A DNA stretch of 63,797 bases, from NCBI GenBank assembly GCA_937872445.1, contig CALMSL010000076.1, forward strand, positions 1-63,797. Reading direction: 5' to 3'. The notes under the pieces are model-generated. The model was not told where the DNA came from. It did no database searches and saw only the letters and a list, made by a program, of their open reading frames with translations. This document shows, piece after piece, positions 3,158 through 21,266 of this stretch. The position numbers and the translations under genes were made by a program. Origin of the DNA: an uncultured Microbacteriaceae bacterium (lineage in GTDB: Bacteria; Actinomycetota; Actinomycetes; Actinomycetales; Microbacteriaceae). Position 1 is the first letter of the stretch. Each line of letters starts with the position of its first letter.

Positions 3158-3243
3158 GGTCCCAAATGAAGGAGTTCCCGGTGCGCAGGTCCGTGATTCC
3201 GGGCTGATAGCGGGCAGCGGATGCTCGATCTCCTTCATTTCGG
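3158..3243. repeat. Dispersed palindromic element, CCCAAATGAAGG type (copy 1)
   Basis: The left end GGGTCCCAAATGAAGGAG (3158-3175) faces the inverted CTCCTTCATTTCGG (3230-3243). An inner CCCGG/CCGGG stem lies between them. It shares its core with the two copies flanking the DUF559 gene at 12828 and 13920. It occupies the divergent intergenic space between the MalY-like gene and guaB3, just upstream of the guaB3 promoter. Confidence 0.75.
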
Positions 3244-3270
3244 ACAGAACCGACGGGAGGGCCGGGAAGA

Positions 3271-7296: not shown

Positions 7297-8861
7297 CCCA
7301 GTCCGGCCCGGTTCTCGTTGTCGACTTCGGGGCACAGTATGCGCAACTCATTGCGCGCCGGGTTCGCGAGGCGAACGTGTATTCGGAGATTGTGCCGCAC
7401 ACGGTGACGGCGGCGGAGATCGCCGAGCGGCAACCGTCCGCCGTGATTTTGAGCGGCGGGCCCTCCAGCGTGTATGAGGCGGGTTCGCCCGCGTTCGACG
7501 CCGGAATTCTGGACCTCGGCGTTCCGATCCTCGGCATTTGCTACGGGTTCCAGATGATGGCGAAGCAGCTCGGCGGCGAGGTCGCCAGGACGGGCCTTCG
7601 CGAGTACGGGGCGACGGATGTCCGGCTCGCGGGCGACGGCGGCACCCTGATGTCCGGGCAGCCGGCCGCGCAAACCGCGTGGATGAGCCACGGCGATTCC
7701 GTCGCGGCGGCGCCGGACGGCTTCACTGTGCTCGCGTCCACCACGTCCACGCCGGTCGCGGCGTTCGCGAGCGACGAGCGCAAGCTATACGGGGTGCAGT
7801 GGCATCCGGAAGTGAAGCACTCGGAGTTCGGCCAGCGCGTGCTCGAGAACTTCCTGCACAACGCGGCGGGGATTCCCGCGGAGTGGACGAGCGGCAGCAT
7901 CATCACCGAGCAGGTTGAACGCATCCGGGAGCAGGTAGGCGGCGCTCGCGTAATTTGCGGGCTGTCCGGCGGCGTGGATTCCGCTGTGGCCGCGGCGATC
8001 GTGCATGAGGCGGTCGGCGACCAGCTCACGTGCATTTTCGTGGACCACGGACTCCTCCGCCAGGATGAGCGCCGCCAGGTGGAGGAGGACTTCGTCGCCT
8101 CAACCGGTGTGCGCCTTGTCACGGTGGATGCTGTGGACCAGTTCCTTGACGCCCTGGCCGGGGTGACCGACCCTGAGACCAAACGCAAAATCATCGGGCG
8201 GGAATTCATCCGCTGCTTCGAGAGCGCCGCCGAGGCTCTCGTACTCGAGGCGAAGGCGGAAGGTGAAGGTATTCGGTTCCTCGTGCAGGGCACGCTGTAC
8301 CCGGACGTCGTGGAGTCTGGCGGCGGTTCGGGCACCGCGAACATCAAGAGCCACCACAACGTGGGCGGTCTGCCCGAGGACATGCAGTTCGAGCTCGTGG
8401 AGCCCCTGCGCACGCTGTTCAAGGACGAGGTGCGCGCGGTCGGGCGCGAACTCGGTCTGCCGGAGGGCATCGTTTCGCGCCAGCCGTTCCCCGGTCCCGG
8501 GCTCGGCATCCGCATTGTCGGTGAGGTCACGCGCGAGCGCCTCGAGCTGCTGCGGCACGCGGATGCGATTGCTCGCGCCGAGTTGACGGCGGCGGGCCTC
8601 GACGCGGAGATCTGGCAGTGCCCTGTCGTGCTGCTCGCGGATGTGCGCTCGGTGGGCGTCCAGGGTGACGGTCGCACGTACGGCCACCCGATCGTGTTGC
8701 GGCCGGTGTCGTCGGAGGACGCGATGACGGCGGACTGGTCGCGACTGCCTTATGACGTGCTTGCGCGCATCTCGAACCGGATCACGAACGAGGTGGACGG
8801 TGTGAACCGCGTCGTACTCGACGTCACGTCGAAACCTCCGGGCACCATTGAGTGGGAATGA
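7293..8861 (+). CDS. guaA: GMP synthase (glutamine-hydrolysing)
   Basis: This 522-residue two-domain enzyme converts XMP, ATP and glutamine to GMP. The N-terminal class I glutamine amidotransferase has the catalytic Cys in GICYGFQMM (about residue 83) and His/Glu in QWHPEV (about 169). The ATP pyrophosphatase domain has the P-loop [12 protein letters not shown] (about 225). The C-terminal dimerisation domain has KPPGTIEWE at the end, which is typical. It starts with GTG inside the DUF3817 stop and its stop overlaps the next ATG. Together with guaB3 it forms a guanine-nucleotide cluster. Confidence 0.97.
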
Positions 8862-9613
8862 CTGACGACGACCGCGAAAGGTTGCGCCGCATCGCCTACG
8901 GGCCGGGTTCGAGTGCTGCGGAGCGCGGCAAGGCCGAGGCGGCACTGCGGGAGTACACGGTGGCCGCAGACTCGGAGACCCCCTCTCAAGAGAGCGACAG
9001 CCCTGAAGCCGTCCGCCCAGAGGAGCGAGGGCGATCCCCGGATGTGTCAAGCGAGCCCCTCGAGACGCACAAGGCAGATTGTCCGGAGCAGGTGCGCGTA
9101 CCCGGTATCCGCCCCGTGTGGCTCATCCCGATAGTTGTCGCAGCTTTGGCACTGGGAGCACTCGGCGCACTGAGTGCAACCGGTCAGCTTGCGCGCAATC
9201 CCACGGCTGCCGCGCCATCGGTGTCGTCAACTCCTCAGGAATCGGATGGGCCGCGCGCCACACAGTTTCCCAGCGGTGATCTTGAGGCGGCCGATCGTGC
9301 CTTCGCGCGCAGTCAGCAGCCAGAGGATGCCTTTCCTGACACTAATCTCCTGGAGGCGAACTCTATCGATCCGGGCAACGTGAGACTCCTCGAGGCGACC
9401 AATCCGGACGGGGAGGCGATAAGCGTGTGGGCGGGAACAAATCGATTGGGGTATCTGTGCCTTCTTGCCACGGTGGGCCCCGAACAGGCCGGGGCGGCAT
9501 CGTGCGCTTCACGGGCAGATTTTGCGCGTGGTGGTGGAATCGGTTTCGGAATAAACGGTTTCCTGGTCTCCTGGAATGGCAAAGGAGTGAGCATTGACGC
9601 GGGTGTCCGTTGA
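8858..9613 (+). CDS. Single-pass membrane protein of unknown function
   Basis: This 251-residue protein is not recognised. It has a cytoplasmic acidic/polar N-terminus of about 90 residues rich in Glu, Ser and Pro, one transmembrane helix (about residues 90-112), and an external domain with two Cys (YLCLLATV and AASCAS) that could form a disulphide. The ATG at 8858 overlaps the guaA TGA, which decides the start. The 3' half looks less GC-rich than guaA. It could sense or bind something outside the cell, but nothing specific can be claimed. Confidence 0.75.
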
Positions 9614-9749
9614 ATTAAGGCGCACTCACCGCTCCTCAACCTACGTGCTGATCCGACGTCTCCGCACAGGCCCGGACGTTAAGTTCGGTCAGGGTGTGTA
9701 GCCTCTGGCATTCTTGACTCTGCTCGACGAAGATAAAGGGGTGACTACC

Positions 9750-10007
9750 GTGACCGAACCGCAAGTGTGGACCATGATTGGCGTGTTCTCCGCGCTCATG
9801 TTCGGGACGTGGACCATCATTTCGACACTCTTTGTGCGAGTCGTTCGCACGGAGATTGGTGGTCTCCGGAGCGAAATGGGTGGCCTGCGGGGTGAAATGG
9901 GTGGTTTGCGGGCAGAAATGAACGCCCGGTTCGACACGGTGAACGTCAAAATCGATGGGCTGGACCGCGACGTACAACTTCTCATGAGTCGAGAGTTCGG
10001 AAAATAG
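9750..10007 (+). CDS. Small membrane-anchored coiled-coil protein
   Basis: This 85-residue protein has a hydrophobic helix at about residues 8-29, followed by a helical tail with three 7-residue repeats of the form E(I/M)GGLRx, then a heptad-rich end (VNVKIDGLDRDVQLLM). Short proteins of this layout are common in actinobacteria and their function is unknown. GTG at 9750 is preferred because AAGGGG lies 8-9 bases upstream; GTG at 9741 is an alternative. It may oligomerise through the coiled coil. Confidence 0.65.
   Translation: MTEPQVWTMIGVFSALMFGTWTIISTLFVRVVRTEIGGLRSEMGGLRGEMGGLRAEMNARFDTVNVKIDGLDRDVQLLMSREFGK
9852..9914 (+). repeat. Three tandem 21-bp in-frame repeats
   Basis: Three 21-base units at 9852, 9873 and 9894 encode E-I/M-GGLR-x three times. 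The second and third units are nearly identical. The copy number could vary by slippage without breaking the frame, changing the length of the coiled coil. Confidence 0.8.
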
Positions 10008-11805: not shown

Positions 11806-12807
11806 GTGAAATCGGCTCCGCGGCCCCGACCGCTCGTCATCGCCCATCGGGGTGCGTGCGGTTACCGCCCGGAGCACAGCCGGGCCGCGTACGAGCTTGC
11901 GCTCAACATGGGCGCGGATGCCGTGGAGCCGGATATTGTCACCACCCGCGACGGTGTTCTGGTGATCCGCCACGAAAACGAGATCTCGGGCACCACGGAT
12001 GTCGCGTCGCGAACCGAGTTCGCGGACCGTCGCACGACGAAGACGATCGACGGGCAGAAACTCACCGGATGGTTCACCGAAGACTTCACCTGGGCTGAAC
12101 TGAAGACCCTGCGGGTGCGCGAGCGGTTGCCCGAGCTGCGGGGTACTGCTTTCGACGAAGAGCAGGGCATCCTGCGCCTGACCGACCTGCTTGAGTTGCT
12201 CGACGCTCACGGCGATACCGGCATGGTCGCGGAGATCAAGCACCCGACCTACTTCGATTCGATCGGATTTCCGCTCGGCGAGCTGGTGGCGGCGGAGCTT
12301 GCGGACGCCGGATGGAAGGCTGACCCGCGGCTCGTGGTGGAGTGTTTCGAAACGGGTGTGCTCGCGCAGGTGCGCGCGCACGGGATCGGAGCGCGGTACG
12401 TGTTCCTTCTGGAGGCGTCGGGGGCGCCCGCGGATGAGGTTGCGGCGCGGGGCCGGGACGCGAAGGCCTTCGCCGAGTACCTCACTGAGGAGGGGCTCGC
12501 CGAACTCGCGGCATCCGGCATGGACGGGATCAGCGTTGACAAACACCTGCTTCTCGCGACGGATGCCTCCGGCCAGGTGACCGGCACGACGGATCTCGTC
12601 GACCGAGCGCACGCGGCTGGACTCACCGTGTTCTGCTGGACGCTGAGGGCCGAGAACAACTTCCTTGCGAAAAACTTTCGCAGGGCCGGAGGGGCAAAGG
12701 AGTACGGCGAGTGGCTGGAGGAGTTCCAGCTGATCATGCGCACGGGTCTCGACGGTGTGTTCGCCGACCAGCCGGACCTCGCCATTGAGGCGCGTGCCGG
12801 GCTCTGA
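11806..12807 (+). CDS. Glycerophosphodiester phosphodiesterase
   Basis: This 333-residue TIM-barrel enzyme hydrolyses glycerophosphodiesters to glycerol-3-phosphate and an alcohol. The N-terminal motif IAHRGACGYRPEHS supplies the catalytic His-Arg and the Glu of the PEHS segment. GADAVEPDIVTTRDGVLVIRHE supplies metal-binding Glu/Asp and the second catalytic His. The C-terminal VFCWTLRAENNF is the conserved tryptophan motif. The long mid-section between residues 90 and 130 is typical of the GlpQ-like group. No signal peptide is visible, so it is probably cytoplasmic. Its product would feed GlpD. The module with 19-bp inverted ends begins 20 bases after its stop. Confidence 0.92.
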   Translation: MKSAPRPRPLVIAHRGACGYRPEHSRAAYELALNMGADAVEPDIVTTRDGVLVIRHENEISGTTDVASRTEFADRRTTKTIDGQKLTGWFTEDFTWAELKTLRVRERLPELRGTAFDEEQGILRLTDLLELLDAHGDTGMVAEIKHPTYFDSIGFPLGELVAAELADAGWKADPRLVVECFETGVLAQVRAHGIGARYVFLLEASGAPADEVAARGRDAKAFAEYLTEEGLAELAASGMDGISVDKHLLLATDASGQVTGTTDLVDRAHAAGLTVFCWTLRAENNFLAKNFRRAGGAKEYGEWLEEFQLIMRTGLDGVFADQPDLAIEARAGL

Positions 12808-12827: not shown

Positions 12828-12916
12828 GGGCCCAAATGAAGGCAATTTGAATCGATGGCACGCATTCATATGGCGCATGCTGAGCTGGTTCGGAGAATCT
12901 CCTTCATTTGGGTCCC
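12828..12916. repeat. Palindromic element, CCCAAATGAAGG type (copy 2, left end)
   Basis: The outer end GGGCCCAAATGAAGGCAAT faces the inner end whose reverse complement is GGGACCCAAATGAAGGAGAT. The ends are polar: one carries GCAAT and the other GAGA. Here the GCAAT end points away from the DUF559 gene. Confidence 0.75.
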
Positions 12917-12966
12917 GCGGGTGGGAGCTCGCCGGTGTCCGGCATTTCGACCACGGATGCAACGGG

Positions 12967-13845
12967 TCAGAGGTGGTCGCCTCGTGCCACGGCCGCAAGG
13001 ACGGCGCGTTCAACTTCATGCCACCGGTAAATCACCTGGTTGTAGCTGAACCGGAGTACGACGAAGTCGATGGCACAGAGTCGCGCATCGCGGCTTCGAT
13101 CAAGCTCGAAGCGAACTGGGTCGATGTGATATGCAGCACCATCCACTTCAACAACGAGCCGCCTGCCGATCAGGAAGTCGACGCGTTTCCCATCGATCCA
13201 AACCTGCCGCGCCAACGGCAATTTGTGTTGGGCAAGTCGGACGTAGGTTATGGACTCGGTGCCACTCTCACAGATTCCGTCAGCGAGGAGCAGGATGGGC
13301 AGGGCTTTCGGTGTAGCGCTAGCGAGAGCCTTCCATTCCGGGAAGGTCATCAGTGGCGCCGTACCTCTTCCGAACGAACGTAGGCCAGAGTTTGCGATCG
13401 CGACCGAATACTCGATTGGTTGACAGCGTGCTACTTCAGTCAGGCAGGGAAGTGGATCCAGCACGAGACGCGAGCCTGATCGTGGTTTTGGGCTCCAATG
13501 CGTCGTCACTCCGGAGGGATTCCTGCCAAGTCGTCGTCGCATGTCGTCGGGCGTCCGCAGCCTGCACTCGTTGTGGTGCAGCGACACGTGCAGGTGTTCG
13601 TCGGGAGGACTCCACATGCCGTGCTGAGTTGCGCCGGAGATGCACCCCAGCCGCCCGCCCACTCGCACGGCCCTCTGAAACGCGTGGTCGACATCCGTCG
13701 TGCAGTACCAGCCCTGTCGAACCCGAACGACATGGCCATAGTTGACAGCAAAGGCCAGCGACTTCTTGCCGAATCCTGCAGCAAGCAATTCATGGGTTGC
13801 GGCGAGTCCGCCGAGTGCGGCAATAGTCTCGGTGAGCGAATGCAT
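12967..13845 (-). CDS. AbiEi-type HTH plus DUF559 (Vsr-like) protein
   Basis: This 292-residue protein has an N-terminal winged-helix region of the AbiEi antitoxin type (LTETIAALGGLAATHELLAAG to VRVRQGWY, about residues 3-50). Its C-terminal DUF559 domain is related to the Vsr/PD-(D/E)XK nuclease fold (RVDFLIGRRLVVEVDGAAYH, with Asp and ExD residues in metal-binding positions, then a FVVLRFSYNQVI strand). No AbiEii toxin gene is adjacent, so it is an orphan. ATG at 13845 matches family N-termini; an ATG at 13893 would add a low-complexity leader. Codon use is visibly less GC-biased than in the flanking genes. It is flanked on both sides by inverted copies of the same palindrome. DNA cleavage or repeat mobilisation is a hypothesis, not shown. 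Confidence 0.8.
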   Translation of the reverse strand: MHSLTETIAALGGLAATHELLAAGFGKKSLAFAVNYGHVVRVRQGWYCTTDVDHAFQRAVRVGGRLGCISGATQHGMWSPPDEHLHVSLHHNECRLRTPDDMRRRLGRNPSGVTTHWSPKPRSGSRLVLDPLPCLTEVARCQPIEYSVAIANSGLRSFGRGTAPLMTFPEWKALASATPKALPILLLADGICESGTESITYVRLAQHKLPLARQVWIDGKRVDFLIGRRLVVEVDGAAYHIDPVRFELDRSRDARLCAIDFVVLRFSYNQVIYRWHEVERAVLAAVARGDHL

Positions 13846-13847
13846 CC

Positions 13848-13874
13848 CGCCAGCATTCACCGACAGTGCTGGCG
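13848..13874 (-). promoter_or_regulatory. Inverted repeat at DUF559 gene start
   Basis: CGCCAGCA (13848-13855) and TGCTGGCG (13867-13874) are perfect 8-bp arms with an 11-base loop, ending 2 bases before the start codon. On mRNA it would sequester the GGCGG ribosome-binding region. On DNA it could be an operator, as characterised AbiEi antitoxins autoregulate at inverted repeats. Confidence 0.5.
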
Positions 13875-13919
13875 CCCGAGTGCTGCTCCGCAAATTCTGT
13901 GGAGTTCGGACTATTGCAT

Positions 13920-14004
13920 CCCAAATGAAGGAGAAGTCGGAAAACGCCTCCGGAATTACAGGGGCGTATTCGGGAAATGTTCCGGATTGCCTTCATTTGG
14001 GCCC
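13920..14004. repeat. Palindromic element, CCCAAATGAAGG type (copy 3, right end)
   Basis: The outer arms CCCAAATGAAGG and CCTTCATTTGGG pair over 12 bp. Inside are CGGAA/TTCCG and ACGCC/GGCGT stems, giving a three-tier hairpin. The GCAAT end points towards pcrA, the mirror image of copy 2. Confidence 0.75.
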
Positions 14005-14045: not shown

Positions 14046-16487
14046 ATGACCTTCATCCCTGAGCTGCCGAATCCCGACATCGAGTCGCGGCTTCTGGAAG
14101 GGCTTAACCCGCAGCAGCGCGAGGCCGTGTTGCACAGGGGCGAAGCACTTCTCATCGTGGCGGGCGCGGGCTCCGGCAAGACGAGCGTGCTCACGCGACG
14201 GATCGCCCATCTCATCGAAACGCAGGATGCCTGGCCGAGCCAGATCCTCGCGATCACGTTCACGAACAAGGCCGCCGCCGAAATGCGCGAGCGGGTCGAA
14301 TCACTCATCGGCAAAGCCGCGGAAGGCATGTGGATTTCGACGTTCCACTCGGCCTGCGTCCGAATCCTGCGCCGCGAGGCAGAAAGCTTCGGGTACACGA
14401 AGAGCTTCACGATCTACGACTCCGCCGACTCGCGCGCCCTCATCAAACGCATCATCAAAGACCTCGACGCCGACACGTACGGCTTCACCGTGAGCAAAGT
14501 CGCCGGCCGAATCTCCAAAGCCAAGAACGAATTGCAGGATGTCGAAAGCTACTCGCGGGATGCAAACTTCGCCGACCCCGCCGAGGCCGTCTTCGTGGAG
14601 ATGTTCCGCCGCTACTCCAACGATCTCACCCGCGCCAACGCCTTCGACTTCGACGACCTCATCGCGCAAACCGTGTACCTGTTCCGGGCCTTTCCGCGAG
14701 TAGCTGCCCTGTACCAGCGCCGCTTCCGGCACATCCTGGTTGACGAATACCAGGACACGAACCACGCCCAGTACTCCCTCATCCGCGAACTCACGCGCGG
14801 ACCGAAGCCCGACGACCTGAAAGGCGCCGTCGGATTCGATGGTATGCCGCTGAAGGAATATGCAGAGCCGCTCGGGCCAGCCTCGCTCACGGTGGTCGGC
14901 GACTCCGACCAGTCGATCTACGCGTTCCGGGGCGCGGACATCCGCAACATCGTCGAGTTCGAGCGGGACTTCCCCAAATCGAAAGTCATCCTGCTCGAAC
15001 AGAACTACCGTTCGACTCAGAACATCCTGAGCGCCGCCAACGCGGTCATCTCGAACAACTTCGACCGCAAAGACAAGAAGCTGTTCACCACGATCGGCGA
15101 CGGCGACAAGATCGTCGGGTTCACCGGGTACAGCCAGCACGACGAAGCCCAGTTCATCGCCGACGAGATTGCCGAGCTGCGCGAGAAGGGCATCGACTAC
15201 CGCGACATCGCCGTGTTCTACCGCACGAACGCGCAGACGCGTGCGCTGGAGGACGTGTTCATCCGCTCGGCGCTGCCCTACCGGGTGATCGGCGGCACGA
15301 AGTTCTATGAACGCGCGGAGATCAAGGATGCTCTTGCCTACCTGATTGCCGTGGCGAATCCGGCCGACCCGCTTGCGCTTCGCCGCATCATGAACGTGCC
15401 CAAGCGCGGCATCGGACCTGCCACCGAGGCGGCGCTTCAGAATCACGCGGACAAGGATGGCCGCACCCTGAGGGAAGCCCTCCGCGAATCGAACGAGCTC
15501 GGCCTCGGGCCGAAGGTGACCGGCGCGATCGAGGAGCTTGCAACGCTCCTCGACGAGGTGGGGGCGACGGTCGAGACGGCGGCGCCCGCGGACATCCTCA
15601 CCGCTCTGCTGGACCGCACGGGATTTCTGGAGGCATTGCGGGCGAGCCGCGACCCGCAGGATGAGGCGCGCGCCGAGAACGTCGAAGAACTCCTCGCCGT
15701 CACGCGCGAGTTCCGCAAGAACAACCCGACCGGCACGCTGCTCGACTTCCTCACCGAGGTGTCGCTCGTGGCGGCGGCCGATGAACTGGACGACTCGAGC
15801 GGAACCGTCTCCCTCATGACCCTCCACACCGCGAAAGGCCTCGAGTTCGAGGCGGTGTTCCTCACGGGCGTCGAAGAAGGACTGCTCCCGCACCAGATGT
15901 CCGCGGGGGAGCCGGGCGGCCCCGCCGAGGAGCGCAGGCTGTTCTATGTGGGGATCACCCGGGCTCGGCGGCGCCTGTACCTGTCCCTCGCGATGACGCG
16001 CGCGCAGTTCGGCGACGTGACCGTAGCGATGCCCAGTCGGTACCTGCAGGAAATCCCGGCCGAACTCATCGACTGGAGACAGTCGCCCGGGATGGCGAAC
16101 TCGCGTGGCGGCACTGAACCGCGGGCGCTCAACGCGCGGCGCGGAGGGTTCGGCGCAGAGACGTCGATTGCCGGCGGCTCTTTCGGAGGCTCGAGCGGGT
16201 ACGCGGTCGAGTCGGCAGGCCCCGGTGCGACAGCGAGGGCGCGGATGGCGGCGCGGGCCGCTGAGCGCCCGAAAACGGAGTGGGCGAGCCGCGTGACGAG
16301 CACTGTGCGCGACAACGGGGACCTGACGCTCGCGGCAGGCGACCGCATCCGGCACGTGGACTTCGGCGAAGGCAAAGTGACGGCGGTGACCGGTTCCGGC
16401 GCGAAGTCGGTGGCCGAAGTGCAGTTCGAGTCGGCGGGCCGCAAGAGACTTCTCATCAAGATATCGCCGATCGAGAAGATCGGATGA
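14046..16487 (+). CDS. pcrA: ATP-dependent DNA helicase PcrA/UvrD
   Basis: This 813-residue superfamily 1A 3'-5' helicase acts in repair and in removing roadblocks from DNA. Motifs in order: Q-motif LNPQQREAV, Walker A AGAGSGKT (about residue 40), motif II DEYQDTNHAQY, motif III VVGDSDQSIYAFRGA, motif IV QNYRST, motif V TLHTAKGLEFEAVF and motif VI GITRARRRL. The C-terminus (DRIRHVDFGEGKVTAV to KISPIEKIG) is the Tudor-like fold that binds RNA polymerase in PcrA. Length is typical of actinobacterial UvrD1. The final codons PIEKIG are the first copy of a tandem repeat that continues beyond the stop. Confidence 0.97.
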   Translation: MTFIPELPNPDIESRLLEGLNPQQREAVLHRGEALLIVAGAGSGKTSVLTRRIAHLIETQDAWPSQILAITFTNKAAAEMRERVESLIGKAAEGMWISTFHSACVRILRREAESFGYTKSFTIYDSADSRALIKRIIKDLDADTYGFTVSKVAGRISKAKNELQDVESYSRDANFADPAEAVFVEMFRRYSNDLTRANAFDFDDLIAQTVYLFRAFPRVAALYQRRFRHILVDEYQDTNHAQYSLIRELTRGPKPDDLKGAVGFDGMPLKEYAEPLGPASLTVVGDSDQSIYAFRGADIRNIVEFERDFPKSKVILLEQNYRSTQNILSAANAVISNNFDRKDKKLFTTIGDGDKIVGFTGYSQHDEAQFIADEIAELREKGIDYRDIAVFYRTNAQTRALEDVFIRSALPYRVIGGTKFYERAEIKDALAYLIAVANPADPLALRRIMNVPKRGIGPATEAALQNHADKDGRTLREALRESNELGLGPKVTGAIEELATLLDEVGATVETAAPADILTALLDRTGFLEALRASRDPQDEARAENVEELLAVTREFRKNNPTGTLLDFLTEVSLVAAADELDDSSGTVSLMTLHTAKGLEFEAVFLTGVEEGLLPHQMSAGEPGGPAEERRLFYVGITRARRRLYLSLAMTRAQFGDVTVAMPSRYLQEIPAELIDWRQSPGMANSRGGTEPRALNARRGGFGAETSIAGGSFGGSSGYAVESAGPGATARARMAARAAERPKTEWASRVTSTVRDNGDLTLAAGDRIRHVDFGEGKVTAVTGSGAKSVAEVQFESAGRKRLLIKISPIEKIG

Positions 16488-20313: not shown

Positions 20314-21201
<888 letters not shown>

Positions 21202-21266
21202 TTTCGTGCGGTCCACGTGAGTGGCGCCGCGGCGCAGGGCGGATGCGGCGGTAGGCTCCGTCAGGT

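Follow-up and report, generated by a model that had tools for sequence, protein, structure and literature searches.

A DUF559 gene held between paired palindromic elements in Microbacteriaceae: a probable gene-plus-repeat system with lineage-specific sites

In the DNA of an uncultured Microbacteriaceae bacterium (assembly GCA_937872445.1, contig CALMSL010000076.1, positions 1–63,797; this whole stretch of 63,797 nucleotides is referred to as the window), a gene of the DUF559 family lies between two complete palindromic elements of a dispersed family. We consider it probable (about 0.7) that the gene and its elements form a system that would operate in the manner of a REPtron, the enzyme being an unrelated one, an AbiEi–Vsr-type protein with lineage-specific paired sites. 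Observed here were the bracketing of such genes, the co-variation of arms with protein, the dispersal of the elements, the phasing of their arms, differences in presence and absence, conserved residues, and the predicted fold.

Results

The DUF559 gene and the elements around it

The features of the module and its surroundings are as follows (positions are those of the window).

3158..3246, no strand: element C (dispersed), arm 3161–3172 and inverted arm 3232–3243, one mismatch
11806..12807, plus strand: GDPD-like gene, left neighbour of the module
12828..12915, no strand: element A (palindromic), arm 12828–12846, variable interior, inverted arm 12897–12915
12967..13893, minus strand: DUF559 gene of 308 aa, read from a TTG start and lying between elements A and B
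13920..14004, no strand: element B (palindromic), inner arm 13920–13934, outer arm 13986–14004, mirror image of A
14046..16487, plus strand: pcrA/uvrD-type helicase gene, the neighbour on the right, which served in the synteny test and as a control

The two neighbours, which we take to be a GDPD-like gene and a pcrA/uvrD-type helicase gene, were named from an earlier sequence-only reading of this DNA. That reading had described a single DUF559 gene between perfect 19-bp inverted ends. A scan allowing up to three mismatches (0.01 matches expected by chance) found the 19-mer exactly at 12828–12846 (plus) and 13986–14004 (minus), and the one gene between them matches the PF04480 profile at 33.9 bits against a cut-off of 20.6; an alternative in-frame ATG lies at residue 17 (13845). 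Within the window, no second gene was conspicuous between the two elements. The ends are palindromic, as had been proposed, but they are not 19-bp repeats: each 19-mer is the outer arm of a complete element of approximately 85 bp with two arms. The layout is a CCCAAATGAAGG arm, approximately 58 variable bases without evident pattern, and the inverted arm CCTTCATTTGGG, and the 12-base arm pairs span 12831–12912 in A and 13920–14001 in B. Element A has an outer arm of the GGCA type and an inner arm of the GGAGA type, and element B is upstream of both the DUF559 gene and pcrA. The supposedly lone third copy at 3158 is in fact a complete pair, element C, at which the full 19-mer has no match with up to three mismatches allowed. 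In the host genome (G000), the 12-base arm starts were 70–71 bp apart in 7/7 copies found, namely six exact pairs and the 3158 copy.

The gene had also been thought less GC-rich than its neighbours. In 500-bp windows its GC content (0.574–0.616) was below that of GDPD on the left (0.636–0.668) but only slightly below that of the first part of pcrA on the right (0.608–0.634). The absence of a transposase was borne out for the RAYT type, since the PF01797 profile gave 0 matches in the G000 draft (96.5% complete); as a control, the same profile matched in 5 of 14 genomes. Near the module, the single Rfam match had an E value of 2.6, under its gathering score, indicating no known RNA family there, and evidence for an outer terminator stem beyond the arms was weak, as just 15% of the flank pairs exceeded the 95th percentile of mismatched pairs.

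In the predicted structure of the window protein, residues 15–209 have an AbiEi-like fold and residues 208–306 form a Vsr/EDxHD-type nuclease domain, with fold matches to AbiEi (6y8q) and I-Bth0305I (3r3p). The protein is thereby predicted to be an AbiEi-antitoxin fold joined to a Vsr/homing-endonuclease domain. Profile matches to AbiEi and to anti-phage nucleases were weak. The residues E213, Q230, D239, E249, D251, D265, and R268 were unchanged in 50/50 proteins and H256 in 49/50; by analogy, a catalytic role among these conserved nuclease-region residues may be assigned. Some genomes hold several divergent DUF559 copies. The host genome has two further DUF559 genes (G000:C193:44509–45354 and G000:C101:61107–61943), which are bracketed by different palindrome families, with TGCAGGACA and AAATTCAGG arms, respectively.

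Distribution and placement of the elements

A pattern scan of genome contigs gave 83 stretches with at least one arm pair, of which, by record title, 81 are from Microbacteriaceae or unplaced actinobacterial MAGs; the hosts include Salinibacterium, Yonghaparkia, Microcella, a Cryobacterium MAG, and RYN_102. Matches in L107 (Uhrbacteria) and L117 (Maribacter) were set aside as due to chance and left out of the flank-pair and 88-element counts and of the genome sets for the spacer comparison. The stretches L138–L140 are outside the 88-element, flank-pair, and first bracketing counts and inside the 83-stretch tblastn, contig-joining, and spacer comparison. Viral contigs gave 0 matches of the element.

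Among 88 different elements, 5 were inside a called gene, 7 overlapped one (with placement by a home-made gene finder, some of these overlaps are doubtful), 10 lay at stretch ends, and the rest were intergenic, between co-directional (32), convergent (20), or divergent (14) genes. One of the five in-gene cases is a weak call, and two are the same mutM (fpg) site in two sister species (L009 1502–1582, from G000 C92, and L090 6186–6266, from G003), where the element adds approximately 35 residues in frame after residue 67, as judged against a solved MutM.

One genome can hold several different palindrome families, and arm sequences show turnover from genus to genus and also inside a genus; G001, G004, G006, and G007, of the same genus as the host, have neither the element family of the window nor this gene copy. 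A conserved central spacer palindrome around GGCGTGTCG..CGACACGCC was seen in L098, L103, L109, and L135 (Yonghaparkia Root332) and also in L101 and L118, and in most other genomes no such palindrome was seen. In L121 and L125, the element and 20 bp on each side are identical in G003 and G005, which are different species of the genus; this may reflect transfer or contamination.

DUF559 genes are bracketed by matching elements

With the window protein as tblastn query, six DUF559 genes were recovered from the 83 stretches, and 6/6 adjoin an element. When imperfect arms were allowed, the genes in L089, L083, L091, and L073 were bracketed on both sides, the RYN_102 gene was bracketed once the next contig piece had been added, and the Root332 gene had a full element on one side and a single arm on the other. 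Five of these genes, all except that of RYN_102, are located between GDPD and pcrA.

An alignment of seven DUF559 proteins (A1) was then searched against 299 genomes of the family, and 196 gave a match with an E value no higher than 1e-40. The four highest-ranking genomes (G000, G003, G059, and G096) were those with at least two CCAAATGAAGG pairs, an overlap that is partly circular as three of them contributed sequences to A1 (G000, G003, and, judging by coordinates, G096), leaving G059 as the only independent case; G298 has one pair. The next-best proteins had flanks without a CCAAATGAAGG arm but with other palindromes, different for most of them.

We therefore defined a two-sided test irrespective of arm sequence: inverted arms of 11 bp with at most one mismatch, a span of 60–115 bp, within 330 bp on each side of the gene, the arms of the two sides matching. 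The test was passed at 50 of 70 DUF559 loci (the best 30 returned by the A1 search and 40 from further down the ranking), against 0/28 pcrA loci and 0/70 shuffled flanks. Six rows of the ranking are outside this survey (G000:C193, G003:C10, G301:C37, G134:C114, G160:C3, and G173:C21), the first two of which were examined under a perfect-arm rule instead. In 17 of the 20 failing loci an inverted repeat was present on one side or both; one-sided inverted repeats were also common in the controls (34/70 shuffled flanks and 12/28 pcrA loci). Under the stricter perfect-arm rule, 16/30 loci and 10/13 loci in the genus passed, the two sets being partly the same genes and orthologues, against 0/29 pcrA loci. 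The pass rate was lower further down the ranking, with 4/16 lower-scoring loci of the family and 4/13 outside it.

Arms are private to each gene and follow the protein

At the 50 passing loci, the four arms around one gene agree and differ between genes, many having an AGGA-like inner end. Arm similarity rose with protein identity (rho 0.31, reached in 0/2000 permutations), and spacer similarity scarcely did (rho 0.086, 65/2000 permutations).

Two arm classes were followed through the 299 genomes. AAATKCAGG pairs occurred in 46 genomes, up to 47 per genome and a single pair only in 7 of the 46, and the reversed pattern in 1 genome. CAAYTCAGG pairs likewise occurred in 46 genomes, 13 of them with a single pair, and the reversed pattern in 1. 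An A1 match, with membership taken by eye from the search list, was present in 43/46 and 45/46 of these genomes, respectively, compared with 196/299 overall (Fisher 3e-6 and 2e-8, genomes being treated as independent). The five genomes with CAAYTCAGG arms at the gene flanks were all positive, and it was from these five that the pattern had been chosen; G096, G243, and G195 had 16, 15, and 24 pairs, respectively, clearly more than the flanks, and the two pairs each in G266 and G155 are maybe just the gene flanks. In G101 and G259, CAAYTCAGG sites formed dense arrays with repeats of approximately 20 bp and not simple pairs.

The pair-bearing genomes without a gene match were G004, G080, and G312, and G002 had gene fragments only; since at most 8 candidates were scored per genome in the A1 search, a gene could have been missed. 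G005, which is of the same genus as the host and outside the 299 genomes, has 9 CCAAATGAAGG pairs but only distant DUF559 genes, and its contig is broken inside pcrA, where the module would lie. We regard the cognate link between a DUF559 protein and its paired site as well supported and very likely to hold. An association of this kind, akin to that of RAYT enzymes with REP palindromes, was what the sequence-only reading had put forward, and counting pairs around DUF559 genes in related genomes, as it had suggested, gave a strong association and not the lack of one that would have spoken against it.

The spacing of the arms is phased

The spans of the 101 listed AAATKCAGG pairs (class one) were all 74–78 or 86–89 bp, and those of the 87 listed CAAYTCAGG pairs (class two) were mainly 66–67, 75–78, 85–88, and 96–98 bp, with stray single spans such as 68, 90, 94, and 107. 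Clusters thus centre on 76 and 87–88, and in class two also on 66 and 97. None of 2000 uniform draws was as periodic, also when one value per genome and span was used. The best period was 10.3 in class two and 11.7 in class one, which has just two clusters. The arm spacing takes discrete values about one turn of the helix apart; therefore, the arms must face the same side of double-stranded DNA, and the sites act on the duplex. This speaks against recognition of a single-strand hairpin, and we set aside RNA or such a hairpin as the working form, which is not needed where spacing follows the helical turn.

Elements come and go at individual sites

The host genome was compared with that of its sister species G003 (PcrA 98% identical). 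At the place of element C, G003 has 13 bp instead (window 3158–3250 vs L254 5537–5549). The reverse case is

21199..21216, no strand: element-free site in G000, with a G003 element opposite (L255 7354–7433)

where 151 bp in G003, comprising an element and a short duplication, replace 16 bp of the window. No target-site duplication was found at these two polymorphic sites. The 13 bp of G003 include a small palindrome that looks like two arm ends joined together; this could be an excision scar. Elsewhere, approximately 1.1 kb of the window (8861–9962) corresponds to only 198 bp in G003.

In RYN_102, 78 of 153 spacer pairs reached 70% identity or more, in every case with the two members on different stretches, against a shuffled maximum of 66%. 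Homology of 11 aligned copies stops approximately 25–33 bp to the left and 22–25 bp to the right of the arms, giving a copied unit of approximately 130–140 bp, and by eye several copies have TA at both ends. Root332 spacers were alike in 6/6 pairs, helped by the shared central palindrome. Spacer likeness was found in 11/210 pairs of G-O1, mainly local duplicates, in 2/45 of S. xinjiangense, and in none of three genomes. Copying of spacers from one place to another is seen in two of the seven genomes at most, and the dispersing unit looks like the 80–140 bp element.

The gene at the GDPD–pcrA place is mostly old

The DUF559 gene lies between GDPD and pcrA at nine other loci too, in several genera. 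In a tree of 55 proteins, nine of the ten at this place fall within one clade of twelve, and the place requires three changes on the tree, a number that 0/500 shuffles matched or undercut. Because of the clade and of this three-change result, we conclude that the gene is mostly old and inherited, with losses and a few moves; descent plus loss is its main history at this place.

Comparing the GDPD–pcrA junction in relatives, another check that had been proposed, gave a divided answer. Of 19 relatives' loci at pcrA, GDPD was in reach at 15, of which two (G000 and G003) have the module and 13 do not, with gaps of 54–299 bp (54–62 in G001, G004, G006, and G007); the site is nevertheless occupied in several genera, and loss is therefore as likely as gain where it is empty. 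Some relatives carry a DUF559 gene at other places. No support was obtained for the 1.18 kb as a discrete transposon, and a fresh jump of the module was rejected, the gene having long been at this place across several genera.

Discussion

Proposed mechanism and alternatives

In the reading that we favour, a protein with an AbiEi-type DNA-binding fold and a Vsr/homing-endonuclease-type nuclease would recognise a 12–15 bp site specific to its lineage. One element would consist of two such sites, inverted and on the same helix face, 60–115 bp from outer edge to outer edge with a free spacer; the gene would be kept between two elements of its own, with further elements spread through mostly intergenic DNA. 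By analogy with AbiEi on its operator, the protein may bind both arms as two bridged monomers; it may also cut DNA, and cutting and repair would spread or maintain the elements. By analogy with REPtrons, the nuclease would naturally be what moves or maintains the elements, and we hold the chances of this to be even. Somewhat more tentatively, DUF559 proteins may drive short elements of a new class, mobile or self-maintaining, by double-site homing, where the protein would bridge two phased inverted sites on the duplex and cut, and repair would copy the element elsewhere. The gene between the elements would act as the resident driver, with the dispersed pairs as passengers, and site and protein would co-evolve into many private pairs inside one bacterial family, and probably in actinobacteria at large.

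The elements could instead be operators through which an AbiEi-like repressor controls its own gene and a regulon, the nuclease domain being incidental. AbiEi and Rv2827c are described as autoregulating via inverted repeats in the promoter (PMC7319586); one element is upstream of the DUF559 gene, and phasing suits paired operator sites. We nevertheless find this explanation unlikely, given the second element on the 3′ side of the gene, the 20/88 elements between convergent genes, where no promoter is expected, the 5/88 called inside a gene (one weakly), the seven nuclease-region residues unchanged in 50/50 proteins, and the two elements present in one sister species and absent from the other. 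Slightly less likely again is a MITE nature of the elements, which an ordinary transposase would move, the DUF559 gene being cargo caught between two copies. The copied unit and the TA ends (by eye) in RYN_102 fit such an origin, as does the polymorphism between G000 and G003; however, the bracketed gene is repeatedly DUF559, with arms that differ each time and follow the protein, which is not expected of random cargo, and no RAYT was found in G000 with the PF01797 profile.

A role in defence or addiction, in which the nuclease would hit foreign DNA or kill cells that lose it and the elements would mark or titrate, draws on the weak profile matches to AbiEi and anti-phage nucleases, the predicted Vsr-type fold, and the several divergent copies in some genomes. 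It appears improbable to us, as no partner gene stands out between the bracketing repeats of the window and titration leaves both the bracketing and the phased spacing of dispersed copies unexplained. The elements could also be sites that organise the chromosome as loop or domain markers, for which matS and H-NS sites are examples; their phased pairing on duplex DNA and their mostly intergenic location would fit. We consider this very improbable indeed, since the distribution is patchy (G001, G004, G006, and G007 are without element family and gene copy), arms show turnover both among genera and inside them, and several families may share one genome.

Relation to known systems

A close parallel to the system proposed here is the REPtron, described (PMC3116915, PMC8266576) as a single gene flanked by dispersed intergenic palindromic repeats, which form inverted doublets with conserved ends and a freer spacer; repeat and enzyme co-evolve, and the gene is largely vertical. 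The DUF559 gene is similarly flanked by palindromic repeats dispersed genome-wide. RAYTs, however, are HUH Y1 enzymes whose substrates are single-stranded hairpins, in most cases tagged with GTAG, whereas an AbiEi–Vsr-like fusion is predicted here. The arms GGNCCCAAATGAAGG(CA/AG) have, by eye, neither GTAG nor a hairpin of their own and pair with the other arm (other classes were glanced at), and their spacing follows the turn of duplex DNA. Membership among the REPtrons was rejected, as the PF01797 enzyme was looked for in the G000 draft and the GTAG hairpin by eye, and neither was found. In TIRtrons, a RAYT-like gene has long terminal inverted repeats at its two ends, and the genome contains related families of TIRs (PMC3733652). 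They share with the present case a gene between inverted repeats that are also found as a dispersed family, and differ in having a tyrosine transposase in place of a DUF559 protein, which here has a complete paired element on each side.

The predicted fold of residues 15–209 resembles the AbiEi antitoxin (type IV toxin–antitoxin, S. agalactiae 6y8q; Rv2827c). AbiEi bends DNA when two of its monomers bind to inverted repeats (PMC7319586); unlike it, the present protein has a predicted nuclease domain, and sites to either side of its gene and elsewhere in the genome. In contrast with the EDxHD/Vsr-like homing endonuclease I-Bth0305I (3r3p) and with Vsr (1cw0), no intron or intein was seen around the gene, which is bracketed by paired palindromes, and the predicted DNA-binding part is of the AbiEi type.

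Correia elements, which are MITEs, and Rickettsia palindromic elements are short, palindromic, and dispersed, and sometimes lie in frame inside genes. The present elements share these features, the in-frame case being mutM, but have a dedicated gene between two of them, lineage-specific arms, and a spacer that is free but phased.

We propose that the DUF559–palindrome partnership is of a new kind, because the enzyme, the recognised form, and the spacing rule differ from those of REPtrons and because searches of the open full-text literature (5.39 million papers), which excludes most subscription journals, gave no description of such a system. Since dozens of natural protein–site pairs can be listed (50 here), the recognition code is directly testable, and such pairs could serve as orthogonal DNA-binding tools. 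DUF559 is filed as a domain of unknown function, and one group of these proteins is now linked to a defined DNA substrate, which for each protein is legible in the genome. If the proposed reading is true, this group would be a second, enzymatically unrelated counterpart of the RAYT/REP role, acting on duplex DNA.
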